Positions 46,227 to 55,139 of a stretch of DNA of 64,000 nucleotides are shown here, one piece after another. Origin of the DNA: Buttiauxella warmboldiae (GTDB lineage: Bacteria; Pseudomonadota; Gammaproteobacteria; Enterobacterales; Enterobacteriaceae); assembly GCF_003818135.1 (NCBI RefSeq), contig NZ_RPOH01000015.1, positions 1 through 64,000 of the forward strand, in the 5' to 3' direction. The notes below the pieces were generated by a model, which worked only from the letters and a program-made list of their open reading frames with translations, searched no databases and was not told the origin of the DNA. Position numbers and translations under genes: made by a program. Position 1 is the first letter of the stretch, and the number at the start of each line of letters is the position of its first letter.

Positions 46227-47885
46227 ATGAATACAACTCCTCCCTGGTGGCAGCATGGTGTCATCTACCAGATCTACCCGAAGAGTTTCCAGGATACCAC
46301 CGGCAGCGGCACCGGTGATTTGATTGGCGTGATTAAGCGTCTCGACTATCTCAAACTGCTGGGCGTTGATGCCATTTGGCTGACGCCGTTTTATGTCTCA
46401 CCGCAGGTGGATAACGGCTATGACGTGGCGAACTACTGCGCCATCGACCACACCTATGGCACCCTGGATGATTTTGATCTGTTAGTCGCCGGCGCCCATG
46501 AGCGCGGCATCCGCATTATTCTGGATATGGTGTTTAACCATACCTCCACACAGCACGCCTGGTTCCATGAGGCGCTCAATAAAGAGAGCCCCTACCGCGA
46601 ATTTTATATCTGGCGTGACGGCACCCCGGAAATTTTACCCAATAACTGGCGCTCTAAATTTGGCGGCAACGCCTGGCGCTGGCATGCGGAAAGCGGCCAG
46701 TATTATCTGCACCTTTTCGCGCCTGAGCAGGCGGATCTCAACTGGGAAAACCCACAGGTTCGCGCTGAACTGAAAAAAGTGTGTGAATTCTGGGCCGATC
46801 GCGGCGTGGACGGTTTGCGTCTTGATGTGATCAATCTGGTTTCTAAGGATCAGGATTTCCCCTGTGATATTGCAGGCGGCGACGGGCGTCGTTTCTATAC
46901 CGACGGGCCGCGTATTCATGAATATCTGCAAGAGTTCAGCCGCGATGTGTTTGTGCCGCGCGAACTGATGACGGTAGGCGAAATGTCATCAACCACGCTC
47001 GATAACTGCCAGCAATATGCGGCGCTCAACAGCAATGAACTGTCGATGACGTTTAACTTCCACCACCTGAAGGTGGACTATCCGGGCGGGCAAAAATGGG
47101 CGCTGGCCGCACCTGATTACGTGGCGCTGAAAGCCATTTTCAGCCACTGGCAGCAAGGGATGCATAACGTGGCGTGGAATGCGCTGTTCTGGTGCAACCA
47201 TGACCAGCCGCGCATCGTGTCGCGCTTTGGTGATGAAGGCGAACTGCGTGTTCCGGCGGCAAAAATGCTGGCGATGGTGCTACATGGTATGCAGGGCACG
47301 CCGTACATTTATCAAGGCGAAGAGTTGGGGATGACCAATCCACACTTCAAACGCATCACTGATTACCGCGATGTGGAAAGCCATAACATGTACGCCGAGC
47401 TGCGCGCCCAGGGCCGGGATAGCGACAATTTGCTGGCGATTCTTGCCGGTAAATCACGCGATAACAGCCGTACGCCGATGCAGTGGGATGAGGGTGAACA
47501 TGCGGGATTCACTGATGGTACGCCGTGGATAAACCTGTGCGATAACTACCAGAGCATCAATGCTAAAGCCGCGATCGATGACCCGGACTCCGTATTTTAC
47601 GCCTATCAAAAACTGATTAAGCTGCGCAAGGCTAACCCGGTCTTCACCTGGGGAAACTATCAGGACCTGCTGCCGGAGCATCCGTATTTATGGTGTTACC
47701 GCCGCGAATGGCAGGGACAAACGCTGGTGGTTGCCGCCAATCTCAGCCGCGAAAATCAATGGTGGATGCCGGAAGCCTTCACCGGCGACTGGGATGTGCT
47801 GATGAGCAACTATTGTGATGCTGCGGGTGAACCGGGTGACATGAGTTTACGGCCATTTGAAGCGGTTTACTGGTTGCAAGGTTAA
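46227..47885 (+). CDS. treC: trehalose-6-phosphate hydrolase TreC
   Basis: A 552-aa GH13 enzyme. The catalytic nucleophile Asp is in GLRLDVINL, the acid/base Glu in TVGEMSS, and the third Asp in FWCNHDQPR. It splits trehalose 6-phosphate into glucose and glucose 6-phosphate. The ATG at 46227 aligns with E. coli; the ribosome site is weak (GGGAC), so it may rely on coupling to treB, which ends 66 bp upstream. Confidence 0.96.
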   Translation: MNTTPPWWQHGVIYQIYPKSFQDTTGSGTGDLIGVIKRLDYLKLLGVDAIWLTPFYVSPQVDNGYDVANYCAIDHTYGTLDDFDLLVAGAHERGIRIILDMVFNHTSTQHAWFHEALNKESPYREFYIWRDGTPEILPNNWRSKFGGNAWRWHAESGQYYLHLFAPEQADLNWENPQVRAELKKVCEFWADRGVDGLRLDVINLVSKDQDFPCDIAGGDGRRFYTDGPRIHEYLQEFSRDVFVPRELMTVGEMSSTTLDNCQQYAALNSNELSMTFNFHHLKVDYPGGQKWALAAPDYVALKAIFSHWQQGMHNVAWNALFWCNHDQPRIVSRFGDEGELRVPAAKMLAMVLHGMQGTPYIYQGEELGMTNPHFKRITDYRDVESHNMYAELRAQGRDSDNLLAILAGKSRDNSRTPMQWDEGEHAGFTDGTPWINLCDNYQSINAKAAIDDPDSVFYAYQKLIKLRKANPVFTWGNYQDLLPEHPYLWCYRREWQGQTLVVAANLSRENQWWMPEAFTGDWDVLMSNYCDAAGEPGDMSLRPFEAVYWLQG

Positions 47886-47899
47886 ACTTCCCTCAATTT

Positions 47900-47920
47900 C
47901 TCCCTCTTATTTTGAGGGAG
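47900..47920 (+). terminator. hairpin after treC
   Basis: A 7-bp stem CTCCCTC/GAGGGAG with loop TTATTTT, 14 bp after the treC stop. Only a broken T-run follows. Confidence 0.55.
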
Positions 47921-47985
47921 ATCTCTTCTCCAAAATTTTAAGATTTGTCCTTGTTGCCCATCCCTCCTGCTACGCCCGATTTACC

Positions 47986-48030
47986 TTGTCCTGCATCAAT
48001 AAAATCGCAAACTTGTTTGATGCAAATCAC
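47986..48030. promoter_or_regulatory. two FNR sites upstream of nrdD
   Basis: Site 1 is TTGATGCAAATCAC (48017-48030), 9 of 10 conserved bases. Site 2 is TTGTCCTGCATCAA (47986-47999), 8 of 10. The centres are exactly 31 bp apart. E. coli nrdDG has FNR sites at -33.5 and -64.5, the same spacing. With TAAAAT at 48044-48049 as the -10 box, the start would be near 48057. Confidence 0.85.
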
Positions 48031-48056
48031 TACATATAGACCTTAAAATGCATCCC

Positions 48057-48231
48057 GCCCCCATATATTGTATTTTTCGCTTATTATAGCAACAAGAGAC
48101 ACCGACATCTCTGGGGATTATCTGTGGATAAAGCCTGGGGCAAAATCAGCAAGCCTGCGGCAGTGCGAGCTCGTCGCGGCTTGCTGACAACGACATCCCT
48201 TTGTGGATAACCTTTTTAAAATGGAGAAATC
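48057..48231 (+). promoter_or_regulatory. nrdD leader with two DnaA boxes and a long hairpin
   Basis: The predicted 175-nt leader holds a NrdR-box-like CATATATTGTAT near the start, and DnaA boxes TGTGGATAA (TTATCCACA on the other strand) at 48123-48131 and 48202-48210. Between them a hairpin has a perfect 10-bp base stem, TCAGCAAGCC (48146-48155) with GGCTTGCTGA (48178-48187). The DnaA box matches are exact. Function is not known. Confidence 0.6.
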
Positions 48232-50367
48232 ATGACGCCGCATGTGATGAAAAGAGACGGGTGCAAAGTGCCTTTCACTTCAGAGCGCATTAAAGAAGCT
48301 ATTCTTCGTGCAGCTAAAGCAGCGGGAGTCGATGACGCAGACTATTGCAGCCGCGTCGCAGATATTGTCCGCGCTCAGATGGAAGGCCGCAGCCAGGTTG
48401 ATATTGGTGAGATCCAGACGGCTGTAGAAAATCAGCTGATGGCCGGCGACTATAAGCAGCTGGCGCGCGCTTATATCGAATATCGCCACGACCGTGATAT
48501 CGAGCGTGAGAAGCGTGGCCGTCTGAACCAGGAAATCCGCGGTCTGGTAGAACAAACCAACTCCGCTTTGCTCAATGAAAATGCCAATAAAGACAGCAAA
48601 GTTATTCCGACGCAGCGCGACTTATTAGCCGGTATCGTGGCAAAACACTACGCTTCACAGCACCTGCTGCCGCGTGATGTGGTGCTGGCGCACGAACGCG
48701 GTGACATTCACTATCACGACCTGGATTACTCGCCGTTCTTCCCGATGTTTAACTGCATGCTTATCGATCTCAAAGGCATGCTGACGCAAGGCTTTAAGAT
48801 GGGGAATGCGGAGATTGAACCGCCAAAATCCATCTCTACCGCAACCGCCGTTACCGCGCAAATTATCGCCCAGGTTGCCAGCCACATTTACGGCGGCACC
48901 ACGATTAACCGCATTGACGAGGTGCTGGCGCCGTTTGTGAGCGCAAGCTTTGAAAAGCATCGCCAGACGGCTGAAGAGTGGCAGATCCCGGATGCCAAAG
49001 GCTATGCGCTCTCGCGCACTGAAAAAGAGTGCTATGACGCCTTCCAGTCGCTGGAATATGAAGTCAACACCCTGCATACCGCCAACGGTCAGACGCCGTT
49101 TGTGACCTTTGGCTTTGGCCTGGGAACCAGCTGGGAATCGCGCCTGATCCAAACCTCGATTCTGCGCAACCGCATCGCGGGCCTGGGCAAAAACCGTAAA
49201 ACGGCGGTGTTCCCAAAACTGGTCTTCGCCATTAAAGACGGCCTGAATCACAAAGCTGGCGATGCCAACTACGACATCAAACAGCTCGCGCTGGAGTGCG
49301 CCAGCAAGCGCATGTATCCCGATATTCTGAACTACGATCAGGTGGTAAAAGTCACCGGCTCGTTTAAAACGCCGATGGGCTGCCGTAGCTTCCTGGGTGT
49401 GTATGAAGAGAACGGCGAGCAGATTCACGATGGCCGTAACAATATCGGGGTGATCAGTCTGAACCTGCCGCGTATTGCGCTGGAGGCCAAAGGGGATGAA
49501 GCCACCTTCTGGCAGCTGCTCGATGAGCGCCTGGAGCTGGCTTATAAAGCCCTGATGACGCGCATCGCTCGCCTTGAAGGGGTGAAAGCTCGCGTGGCGC
49601 CAATCCTGTATATGGAAGGGGCCTGCGGTGTGCGCCTGAAAGCAGACGATGACGTTGCGGAGATTTTCAAAAATGGCCGCGCGTCGATTTCCCTGGGCTA
49701 CATCGGTATTCACGAAACGGTGAACGCGCTGTTCGGCAATCAGCACGTGTACGATAGCGCAGAGCTGCGTGCCAAAGCCGTCGCCATTGTCGAACGCCTG
49801 CGCCAGGCAACCGACAGCTGGAAAGAGGAAACCGGCTACGGTTTCAGCCTGTACAGCACGCCGAGTGAAAACCTGTGCGACCGCTTCTGCCGTCTGGACA
49901 CCGCCGAATTTGGCATTGTCCCGGGCGTGACGGATAAGGGCTATTACACCAACAGCTTCCATTTAGACGTTGAGAAGAAAGTTAACCCTTACGACAAAAT
50001 CGATTTTGAAGCGCCGTATCCACCGATCGCGAATGGTGGTTTCATCTGTTATGGCGAATACCCGAACATCCAGCACAACCTGCAGGCGCTGGAAGATGTC
50101 TGGGATTACAGCTATCAACACGTGCCGTATTACGGCACCAATACGCCAATTGATGAGTGCTACGAGTGCGGCTTTACCGGTGAGTTTGAGTGCACCAGCA
50201 AAGGCTTCACCTGCCCGAAATGCGGCAACCACGACGCCGCACGCGTCTCGGTAACGCGCCGCGTTTGTGGCTATCTCGGCAGCCCGGATGCACGTCCGTT
50301 TAACGCCGGTAAGCAAGAAGAGGTGAAGCGTCGCGTCAAGCATCTTGGCAACGGGCAGATTGGCTAA
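48232..50367 (+). CDS. nrdD: anaerobic ribonucleoside-triphosphate reductase NrdD
   Basis: A 711-aa class III reductase. The N-terminal ATP-cone (about 3-95) sets substrate choice and activity. The C-terminal zinc site has CYEC and CPKC. The glycyl radical is G680 in RRVCGYLG. It makes dNTPs without oxygen, with formate as reductant. Its leader is described separately. The next gene, nrdG, starts directly at the stop codon. Confidence 0.98.
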   Translation: MTPHVMKRDGCKVPFTSERIKEAILRAAKAAGVDDADYCSRVADIVRAQMEGRSQVDIGEIQTAVENQLMAGDYKQLARAYIEYRHDRDIEREKRGRLNQEIRGLVEQTNSALLNENANKDSKVIPTQRDLLAGIVAKHYASQHLLPRDVVLAHERGDIHYHDLDYSPFFPMFNCMLIDLKGMLTQGFKMGNAEIEPPKSISTATAVTAQIIAQVASHIYGGTTINRIDEVLAPFVSASFEKHRQTAEEWQIPDAKGYALSRTEKECYDAFQSLEYEVNTLHTANGQTPFVTFGFGLGTSWESRLIQTSILRNRIAGLGKNRKTAVFPKLVFAIKDGLNHKAGDANYDIKQLALECASKRMYPDILNYDQVVKVTGSFKTPMGCRSFLGVYEENGEQIHDGRNNIGVISLNLPRIALEAKGDEATFWQLLDERLELAYKALMTRIARLEGVKARVAPILYMEGACGVRLKADDDVAEIFKNGRASISLGYIGIHETVNALFGNQHVYDSAELRAKAVAIVERLRQATDSWKEETGYGFSLYSTPSENLCDRFCRLDTAEFGIVPGVTDKGYYTNSFHLDVEKKVNPYDKIDFEAPYPPIANGGFICYGEYPNIQHNLQALEDVWDYSYQHVPYYGTNTPIDECYECGFTGEFECTSKGFTCPKCGNHDAARVSVTRRVCGYLGSPDARPFNAGKQEEVKRRVKHLGNGQIG

Positions 50368-50832
50368 GTGAATATGCATCAGTATTACCCGGTAGACATC
50401 GTGAATGGGCCGGGTACCCGCTGCACGCTGTTTGTCTCCGGCTGCGTGCATGAATGTCCCGGGTGCTATAACAAGAGCACCTGGCGGGTCAATTCAGGTG
50501 TGCCATTTACCCAGCAAATGGAAGACCAGATCGTTGCCGATCTGAACGATACGCGTATTCGTCGCCAGGGGTTGTCGCTTTCGGGCGGCGACCCGCTGCA
50601 TCCGCAAAACCTCGCCGATGTACTGAAGCTGGTAAAACGGGTAATCGCGGAATGTCCCGGCAAAGATATCTGGATGTGGACGGGTTATAAAATTGATGAA
50701 TTAACCGCGGCTCAGCGTGAAGTGGTGGATTTAATCAATGTGCTGGTCGACGGCAAATTTGTTCAGGATCTCAAAGACCCGGCGCTTATCTGGCGCGGCA
50801 GCAGCAATCAGGTTGTTCATTATTTGCGGTAA
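50368..50832 (+). CDS. nrdG: anaerobic RNR activating enzyme NrdG
   Basis: A 154-aa radical-SAM protein, the exact E. coli length. The [4Fe-4S] Cys are in CVHECPGC (C-x3-C-x2-C). It makes the glycyl radical of NrdD. It begins with GTG directly after the nrdD stop, so translation is coupled. In this genome it converges with yraR after 6 bp, unlike E. coli. Confidence 0.97.
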   Translation: MNMHQYYPVDIVNGPGTRCTLFVSGCVHECPGCYNKSTWRVNSGVPFTQQMEDQIVADLNDTRIRRQGLSLSGGDPLHPQNLADVLKLVKRVIAECPGKDIWMWTGYKIDELTAAQREVVDLINVLVDGKFVQDLKDPALIWRGSSNQVVHYLR

Positions 50833-50833
50833 G

Positions 50834-50848
50834 CCTCTTTATGAGGCT
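50834..50848. terminator. small hairpin at the nrdG/yraR junction
   Basis: GCCTC-TTTAT-GAGGC spans the 6-bp gap and the end of yraR. It is a candidate shared 3' end for two convergent genes. Confidence 0.4.
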
Positions 50849-51480
50849 GTTGCCCTTTCTCGTAACTGACGCGAGTCGAGAATATTCACCCCTTCGCACG
50901 CAGGTGCAAGCGCCGCGTGCAGCATCGCCTTTGCCACATCCCGCGCTTCAATAGACTTCCATTTTCCAGGCATAATTTTAAACAATGGCGCAAGCAACGC
51001 TTCGTTAAAGCGTTGCGATTCGCGATGCCCAAGCAACATGGACGGGCGCGCAATGGTCAGACACGGCCAGCTCTGCGCGATTAACGCTTCTTCCATTTTG
51101 CCTTTCACCCGATTGTAGAAAAACGGTGATTGACGGTTAGCCCCGATCGCGCTGACCACCAGCATATGCTTCGCGCCAAGACGCTGACCGGTAATTGCAG
51201 TATCGACCACCAGCGTGTAATCCGCCAGCACAAACGCTTCTTTACTGCCCGCCTCGCGCAAAGTGGTGCCAAGGCAGCAAAAAACGACGTCCAGCGGTGC
51301 GCTTAATTGGGTGAGCACATCGCTTAATTGCGGATCGTGGGGATTGGTGACTTTATGCATCGGCGTCATCGGCCGCCGCGTCGCCGCAACGATATGGCTG
51401 ACCTGTGGCTCATTAACCAGCATGCGTAACAGATGCCCGCCAATCAGGCCTGTGGCTCCGGTAATCAATACACGCGTCAT
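50839..51480 (-). CDS. yraR: YraR, NAD(P)-binding atypical SDR protein
   Basis: A 213-aa Rossmann-fold protein with the nucleotide motif GATGLIGG at residues 7-14 and the [12 protein letters not shown] segment holding the Tyr-x3-Lys pair. It resembles E. coli YraR, whose function is unknown. The gene is divergent from yhbO with a 101-bp gap. It opens the block that corresponds to the E. coli 71-min region. Confidence 0.9.
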
Positions 51481-51581
51481 GGAAACTCCTTATTCAGATG
51501 AATCTAAGTCTAGCCCGCTCGCTTGCAAAGTCAGCCCCGTCGTCCAGGATTAATCACTGAAACCATCAAACCGGAGGCGCT

Positions 51582-54143: not shown

Positions 54144-55139
54144 ATGGAGTTGCTTTGCCCAGCTGGAAACTTACCGGCGTTGAAAGCGGCCATCGATAAT
54201 GGCGCCGATGCGGTTTACATTGGTCTTAAAGATGATACCAACGCTCGCCATTTTGCTGGACTGAATTTCACGGAGAAGAAACTGCAAGAAGCGGTGAGTT
54301 ACGTGCATCAACATCGCCGTAAACTGCACATCGCTATCAATACGTTTGCGCACCCGGACGGCTACGTGCGCTGGCAGCGAGCAGTGGATATGGCAGCGCA
54401 ACTCGGAGCCGACGCGTTAATTCTTGCTGACCTCGCCATGCTTGAGTACGCGGCAGAACGTTATCCACACATTGAGCGCCACGTCTCGGTACAAGCCTCC
54501 GCCACCAATGAAGAAGCGATTCGTTTTTATCATCGCAACTTCGAGGTTGCGCGTGTTGTATTACCACGCGTGCTCTCTATCCATCAGGTCAAACAGCTAG
54601 CCCGGGTCACGCCAGTGCCGCTGGAGGTTTTTGCATTCGGCAGCCTGTGCATCATGGCTGAAGGGCGCTGCTACCTCTCTTCCTATCTGACGGGTGAATC
54701 GCCGAATACCGTGGGCGCCTGCTCCCCGGCGCGCTTTGTGCGCTGGCAGCAAACACCGCAGGGGCTGGAATCACGCCTTAACGATGTGCTGATCGACAGA
54801 TATCAGGATGGCGAAAACGCGGGTTATCCCACGCTGTGTAAAGGCCGCTACCTGGTTGACGATCAGAAATATCACGCGCTGGAAGAGCCAACCAGCCTGA
54901 ACACCCTGGAGCTGCTGCCGGAGCTGCTGGCGGCCAATATTGCCTCGGTAAAAATCGAAGGCCGCCAGCGCAGCCCGGCCTATGTCAGCCAGGTGGCAAA
55001 AGTCTGGCGTCAGGCAATCGACCTGTGTATGGCCGATGCGGAAAACTATCGTGCTCAACCGGCATGGATGGAAGATCTCGGTGCGATGGCCGAAGGTACG
55101 CAAACCACTCTCGGTGCCTATCACCGTAAATGGCAGTAG
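54144..55139 (+). CDS. ubiU: UbiU (YhbU), U32-family O2-independent hydroxylase subunit
   Basis: A 331-aa peptidase-U32-like protein, the same length as E. coli UbiU. The [4Fe-4S] Cys are visible in LCIMAEGRCYLS, VGACSPARF and PTLCKGRY. With UbiV it hydroxylates ubiquinone precursors without oxygen, using prephenate as hydroxyl source. AGGATAAATT precedes the ATG. ubiV follows after 8 bp. Confidence 0.95.
   Translation: MELLCPAGNLPALKAAIDNGADAVYIGLKDDTNARHFAGLNFTEKKLQEAVSYVHQHRRKLHIAINTFAHPDGYVRWQRAVDMAAQLGADALILADLAMLEYAAERYPHIERHVSVQASATNEEAIRFYHRNFEVARVVLPRVLSIHQVKQLARVTPVPLEVFAFGSLCIMAEGRCYLSSYLTGESPNTVGACSPARFVRWQQTPQGLESRLNDVLIDRYQDGENAGYPTLCKGRYLVDDQKYHALEEPTSLNTLELLPELLAANIASVKIEGRQRSPAYVSQVAKVWRQAIDLCMADAENYRAQPAWMEDLGAMAEGTQTTLGAYHRKWQ

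Follow-up and report, generated by a model that had tools for sequence, protein, structure and literature searches.

The nrdDG leader of Buttiauxella warmboldiae

The window analysed here is a stretch of 64,000 nucleotides from Buttiauxella warmboldiae (contig NZ_RPOH01000015.1, positions 1 to 64,000), and we concentrate on the leader of its nrdD gene, which encodes a class III ribonucleotide reductase (Table 1). The ORF behind nrdD was named nrdG from its translation and position and is presumably the activase gene. Among named relatives, the N-terminus of NrdD is closest to those of Buttiauxella (97-99% over 183 residues). An intrinsic-terminator-like hairpin (47899-47921, plus strand) just 3' of a treC-like ORF separates this ORF from nrdDG; a scan of the nrdD leader itself returned no intrinsic terminator.

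Two FNR-like sites, assigned by their resemblance to the FNR motif, have their centres at 47992.5 and 48023.5. Their distance of 31 bp is the same in E. coli K-12, as a preliminary description of this DNA had stated. A consensus scan of positions 47860-48260 found no sigma-70 consensus promoter, and we assume that transcription starts near 48057, applying the FNR geometry known for E. coli. The preliminary description mentioned a single NrdR-like box; such a box is present, but it is one of two. They are 15 bp apart, as are the NrdR boxes of E. coli nrdDG (PMC12176259), and the leader has both the two FNR sites and the two NrdR boxes at this spacing that mark an enterobacterial class III reductase promoter.

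Further downstream, yet upstream of the nrdD ORF (start 48232), two perfect copies of the DnaA box TTATCCACA are located on the minus strand, their starts 79 bp apart, as given in the preliminary description, with 70 bp between them. Its statement that the 9-mer occurs exactly twice was wrong, as a third copy was found at 54461-54469 on the plus strand. This copy lies inside an ORF (54144-55139) that we presume to encode a protein resembling the peptidase-U32 protein UbiU, and is probably a chance occurrence. Shuffled versions of the window contained 0.35 copies on average and 2 at most, and the probability of finding at least two copies in the 175-bp leader by chance is about 5e-7, uncorrected for the search of the whole window. 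Members of the E. coli DnaA regulon have been described by a double-box rule, a perfect or near-perfect 9-mer upstream of the gene with a second box 2 or 3 bp away (PMC11317965). The leader contains two perfect 9-mers, and the 7/9 partner of the distal one is located at 2 bp.

Table 1. Features of the nrdDG locus, with positions counted from the first letter of the window
Feature	Position	Strand	Basis or remark
FNR-like site 1 (TTGTCCTGCATCAA)	47986-47999	plus	Read from sequence; 31 bp from site 2
FNR-like site 2 (TTGATGCAAATCAC)	48017-48030	plus	Conserved in leader alignment
NrdR-like box 1	48027-48042	plus	Matches E. coli nrdDG probe of PMC12176259
Putative -10 (TAAAAT), start near 48057	48044-48049	plus	Inferred from E. 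coli FNR geometry
NrdR-like box 2, 15 bp from box 1	48058-48073	plus	Sequence comparison
Weak DnaA partner TAATCCCCA, 7/9, 2 bp from distal box	48112-48120	minus	Partner scoring
Distal DnaA box, perfect TTATCCACA	48123-48131	minus	9-mer search
Spacer, 70 bp, self-complementary	48132-48201		Near-fixed length, co-evolving arms
Hairpin, 10-bp perfect stem and further inner pairs	48146-48187		Folding
Proximal DnaA box, perfect TTATCCACA	48202-48210	minus	Orthologue of E. coli ChIP-seq double box
Proximal partner position, weak: TTTTAAAAA, 5/9 (E. coli has TTAAGAACA)	48213-48221	minus	Partner scoring
nrdD, class III ribonucleotide reductase	48232-50367	plus	ORF; E. coli orthologue annotated nrdD
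nrdG-like ORF (activase)	50368-50832	plus	ORF

Conservation and variants of the box pair

The preliminary description would have given up its idea had the boxes been absent from close relatives and DnaA not bound; the boxes are kept in close as well as distant relatives. We compared 81 nrdD leaders, those of E. coli K-12 and 80 named loci. Two minus-strand boxes, an arrangement that we call type A, are found in 77 of them, both boxes being perfect in 75, and the distance between the box starts is 76 (1 leader), 77 (43), 78 (28) or 79 bp (5). The E. coli K-12 leader, which is orthologous to the one described here, carries the same two boxes. Edwardsiella hoshinae has a plus/minus pair, and three leaders have no boxes. 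In one of these three, from Escherichia sp. ESNIH1 (L086), the segment comprising both boxes and the spacer is missing while the FNR and NrdR sites are kept, and the comparison suggests a natural deletion.

A second set overlaps with the first, so that the counts are not additive. It comprises 114 genomes of the same GTDB family, obtained from 120 DNA matches by removing the window's own genome, G068, G115, G175 and two others that were left out for want of a recognisable nrdD start (G012 and G160), and was counted by NrdD type with no pre-filtering on boxes. Among the 57 genomes with a TPHV-type NrdD, the pair is present in 51, a single degenerate box in 2 and no box in 4. Within E. coli, a 106-bp segment of the leader was found in 5372 of 5426 genomes (4910 at 99% identity or more), a figure that describes conservation of the segment and not letter-for-letter retention of both boxes in each genome.

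For column statistics, spacing, partner scoring and the chimera test described below, type-A leaders were selected at no more than one mismatch per box and a pitch of 70-85 bp. In 116 unique leaders, the information content is 1.8-2.0 bits in the box columns and below 1 bit in most columns of the spacer; both boxes are perfect in 109 of the 116, which is partly circular, as the leaders were pre-selected on boxes. The spacers are only 55% identical on average in pairwise comparison, and their length is 67-70 bp among type-A relatives. In the 74 of 116 unique leaders with recognised flanking anchors, the box-to-box distance has a standard deviation of 0.71; that of the interval between NrdR box 2 and the distal box is 1.98, and that of the interval between the proximal box and the ATG 3.07. 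The interval between FNR site 2 and NrdR box 2 is 56 in 67 of these 74 leaders, its large standard deviation coming from a few outliers with probably misplaced anchors, and the promoter spacing is therefore as rigid as that of the box pair. The near-fixed distance between the boxes suggests that two DnaA complexes touch.

The weak partner box differs in position among the lineages. For 104 unique type-A leaders, we scored each box by its best partner at a distance of 2 or 3 bp, on whichever side this lay. The distal box has a 7/9 partner in 15 of them and a 6/9 partner in 7, the proximal box a 7/9 partner in 1, a 6/9 partner in 28 and a 5/9 partner in 48; shuffled flanks reach these scores in 0.3% (7/9), 2.8% (6/9) and 12.9% (5/9). 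For comparison, the published partners at purH and nrdD score 7/9 and 6/9 (sites from PMC11317965, scoring ours). The strong distal partner TAATCCCCA was found, among the rows listed, in the window, Buttiauxella, Cedecea, Dryocola and one "Enterobacter" (L017), and the proximal partners in these leaders score 4-5. E. coli has a 6/9 partner at the proximal box and a 4/9 partner at the distal box; the double box listed for E. coli nrdD is the proximal one (PMC11317965), whereas here the distal box is the better provided (7/9 against 5/9). The 2-bp-spaced weak partner belongs to the proximal box in E. coli and to the distal box in Buttiauxella and Cedecea. Since Buttiauxella, Cedecea and the other bearers are related, this switch represents one or a few events.

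Other leaders contain DnaA boxes in different arrangements. In the 53 genomes with a KPVV-like NrdD, a plus-strand box is followed by a minus-strand box 35-75 bp on in 32 (both perfect in 25), while 5 have a single box and 16 have none. Together with Edwardsiella, these 32 leaders form type B (n = 33). The plus box has a partner with 7-9 matches in 31 of the 33, at 2 bp (11 leaders) or 3 bp (20), and in 29 of the 33 the plus-strand double box starts 2 bp after the core of NrdR box 2 (e.g., L141 and L149). DnaA and NrdR, both of them nucleotide-sensing, would in this layout have a common operator or be rivals for it. Beyond the family, 40 leaders from 15 families of the same order were examined, and 4 of these leaders carry a perfect box within 400 bp. 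Two of these four belong to the family f21, and after the addition of ten more genomes (a thirteenth, G310, was left out) 11 of the 12 genomes proved to have one perfect minus-strand box behind NrdR box 2, at -38 to -41 relative to nrdD. In the family f10, a perfect box was detected in 1 of 12 genomes. Of 148 genomes with a match, the leaders of 58 were examined. The recurrence of DnaA sites in differing arrangements argues for selection on DnaA binding and not on an RNA sequence.

The self-complementary spacer

The hairpin with a 10-bp stem noted between the boxes in the preliminary description was recovered, with its arms at 48146-48155 and 48178-48187. The full predicted helix has 18 pairs, and a folding energy of -54.5 kcal/mol (z -2.58) was obtained for the 175-nt leader. 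While the exact stem is absent from nine other Buttiauxella leaders, the helix co-varies in this genus: 55.1% of cells pair, against 22.7-32.4% when the helix is slid, and both sides have changed in 7 pairs, where shuffles give 3.8 (1 of 500), although the helix was defined from the window's own sequence, which favours the window helix.

Pairing within the spacer extends beyond Buttiauxella. The halves of type-A spacers pair better with their own than with a chimeric other half (-2.28 kcal/mol, 32 of 44 clusters, Wilcoxon p 3e-4). In the controls, shuffled arms gave -0.09 (sd 0.56, minimum -1.03 of 60), a reversed arm -0.26 (22 of 44) and two upstream segments -0.55 (25 of 44) and +0.31 (15 of 43). 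The result was retained in 28 of 39 clusters when Buttiauxella was omitted and in 17 of 26 (p 0.003) at 0.70; with just 8 or 7 clusters, the p-values were 0.04 and 0.05. The spacer ends also pair with each other above shuffles. These data show a type-A spacer that is evolving as an imperfect inverted repeat, and the hairpin of the window exemplifies it strongly. Folding of single type-A spacers gave a mean z of -0.90, with 19% below -2. Many type-B spacers are hairpin-like as well (mean z -1.25), and the chimera test was not significant for type B, neither by MFE (8 of 12 clusters, p 0.08) nor by duplex energy (6 of 12, p 0.43). Two spacers (L127 and L204) form a very strong hairpin directly 5' of a degenerate proximal box, TTATACACA.

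No shared RNA structure was detected by RNAalifold among 110 type-A spacers, and the covariance models of Rfam 15 gave no hit within 47000-51500 at E values of up to 1. A search for phage relatives of the leader gave no match at E 0.01. Plus and minus strands fold equally well, with no strand bias, which favours neither DNA nor RNA as the acting molecule and leaves templated mutation of quasi-palindromes as an alternative. The self-complementarity could hence be a functionless by-product of template switching, an explanation that concerns the hairpin and not the boxes. It would account for a pairing that is kept while the sequence is not conserved, and for the absent strand bias, but a spacer length held at 67-70 bp is unexpected under drift with template switching. 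We regard this origin of the hairpin as a serious possibility, somewhat short of an even chance.

DnaA at nrdD and a candidate operator

The preliminary description proposed that DnaA links the anaerobic dNTP supply to replication. The conservation of the boxes supports this link, as does DnaA binding in E. coli, for which a ChIP-seq peak at nrdD was reported at 62-fold over control (Stringer, Fitzgerald & Wade 2024, PMC11317965); with this report, the link is no longer the novelty that the description had believed it to be. The double box TTAAGAACAggTTATCCACA within 200 bp of the peak corresponds to the proximal box and its partner, and the authors call earlier nrdD sites predicted but undemonstrated, citing Messer & Weigel 1997 and Torrents 2007. 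The accessible parts of that article mention neither a second perfect box nor a fixed pitch or a spacer hairpin, and no description of these features or of the other layouts was found in the open-licence literature searched. Elsewhere, a regulator list of 2025 gives H-NS and FNR at nrdDG, with DnaA absent from the part available (PMC12176259), and DnaA boxes are marked at nrdAB and FNR boxes at nrdDG for Salmonella (PMC2892513). To DnaA at nrdD, already known in E. coli, the present analysis adds how the sites are laid out across relatives, the switch of the partner box and the self-complementarity of the spacer. Judged from its sites, the nrdD leader of B. warmboldiae is very likely bound by DnaA, too.

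We think that the transcribed nrdDG leader probably contains a DnaA operator, which would lower transcription when ATP-DnaA is high. DnaA would bind cooperatively at one perfect box and its weak partner at 2 bp, which is the distal box here (48112-48131) and the proximal box in E. coli, and would also occupy the second perfect box, some 7.3-7.5 helical turns away. If transcription starts near 48057, RNA polymerase would have to pass the boxes at about +67 and +146, and a complex downstream of the promoter would lower nrdDG transcription at high ATP-DnaA, either as a roadblock or as a loop. When ATP-DnaA falls after initiation, DnaA would release the leader, and a replication-cycle input would thereby be added to those of oxygen (FNR) and ATP/dATP (NrdR). 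Looping between the boxes and the timing of the release are steps that we infer.

The DnaA boxes of nrdAB form a single close pair 5' of the promoter, unlike the two sites of nrdDG, which are 77-79 bp apart and downstream of the inferred start. Both are nonetheless reductase operons with DnaA sites and NrdR boxes (PMC2773459, PMC12176259). For nrdAB, activation by DnaA has been reported, as has repression by its ATP-bound form (PMC12371093, PMC2773459), and ATP-DnaA was proposed to repress the operon before initiation (PMC2773459). DnaA at box 2 of datA attenuates read-through transcription (PMC10950094), and at the asnC terminator, a roadblock cited in the same article, DnaA likewise stands in the path of RNA polymerase, while a roadblock at nrdD is deduced from position alone. 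Boxes in the path of the polymerase, attenuation at datA and asnC and the repression proposed for nrdAB together led us to take repression of nrdDG by ATP-DnaA as what would be the most likely effect.

NrdD is raised in a datA-DARS1-DARS2 triple deletion at intermediate and fast growth and in a DARS2 deletion at slow growth (PMC12371093), which would fit repression by ATP-DnaA. However, the DARS2 deletion left the DnaA-bound fraction and the activity of the dnaA promoter unchanged at slow growth (PMC12371093), so that the rise of NrdD may not act through DnaA, and the authors of that study hold that altered DnaA-ATP or titration affects the DnaA regulon little. Against an operator also stand the leaders with no boxes (3 of 81, and 4 of 57 of the TPHV type) or degenerate ones (2 of 57), as well as the 4/9 partner of the E. 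coli distal box and a published table that gives the proximal double box only.

The genome of B. warmboldiae (4.30 Mb, 135 contigs) contains 50 perfect boxes, against 12 of the reversed pattern, and only three pairs within 150 bp, where 0.085 would be expected under uniform placement. Besides nrdD (79 bp), these are a pair at 67 bp between ORFs resembling orn and queG (G000:C30:8179-8254; L207) and one at 118 bp between ORFs resembling mutH and rppH (G000:C40:7033-7159; L208), the gene names having been read off the translations. We call the former datA-like, as E. coli datA lies between orn and queG. The latter is DARS2-like, E. coli DARS2 being located upstream of mutH (PMC11317965).

With such loci as the only other close pairs, the leader could bind DnaA mainly to hold or remodel it, by titration or in the manner of datA and DARS, with little effect on nrdDG. 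It shares with datA a pair of perfect boxes on the same strand, which are transcribed and keep a near-fixed pitch, and the authors of PMC12371093 suggest that regulon sites could aid titration. The pitch is about one helical turn longer than that of datA in this genome (79 against 67 bp, 77-78 bp being common at nrdD). We consider this role unlikely. datA needs an IHF site and has four boxes, three of them essential (PMC10950094), whereas a scan of the nrdD spacers, itself a weak one, showed no clear IHF site: the IHF consensus was matched with up to 2 mismatches in 58 of 110 unique spacers against 43.2 expected, a modest excess. In the spacer of the window, the closest approach to the consensus has 3 mismatches, and five datA-like spacers taken as a yardstick were no better (2-3). 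In the 300 bp upstream of the start codon, no datA-type extra boxes besides the pair were found at up to one mismatch. Moreover, the sites remain beside the nrdD promoter in lineages that arrange them differently.

Less probable still is that DnaA activates nrdDG, or acts both ways depending on its ATP state, as its two reported roles at nrdAB would allow (PMC12371093, PMC2773459), given that the boxes come after the inferred start of transcription and that NrdD goes up, not down, without DARS2 (PMC12371093). Least probable of all, despite the leader's z of -2.58, the co-variation in Buttiauxella, the co-evolving type-A arms and the many hairpin-like type-B spacers (mean z -1.25), is a hairpin that controls nrdD translation or decay as RNA, with the boxes secondary, for it has no Rfam match, no RNAalifold consensus and no difference between plus and minus, the boxes are far more conserved than it is, and the type-B distal box lies on the opposite strand, which an RNA motif would not tolerate.

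Returning to the DnaA operator as the preferred reading, a more far-reaching form of it, which we offer as a long shot, would make the pitch and the inverted-repeat spacer one device. Two DnaA complexes, kept at a set distance by the spacer, would close the nrdDG leader into a loop of defined size that senses the level of ATP-DnaA, and the layout would be intermediate between datA and an operator of the promoter type. In other lineages, this loop would be rebuilt with the dimer site at the other box or directly behind NrdR box 2, where two ATP/dATP sensors, DnaA and NrdR, would share one operator.

Comparison across relatives shows that the DnaA sites of the anaerobic reductase are ancient, have been maintained and are no oddity of E. 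coli. Any mechanism must explain the pitch of 76-79 bp, the switch of the partner box, the abutment with NrdR box 2 and the inverted-repeat spacer. The finding makes it directly testable whether the supply of dNTPs is coupled to the replication cycle in the absence of oxygen, a coupling already proposed for the aerobic reductase.
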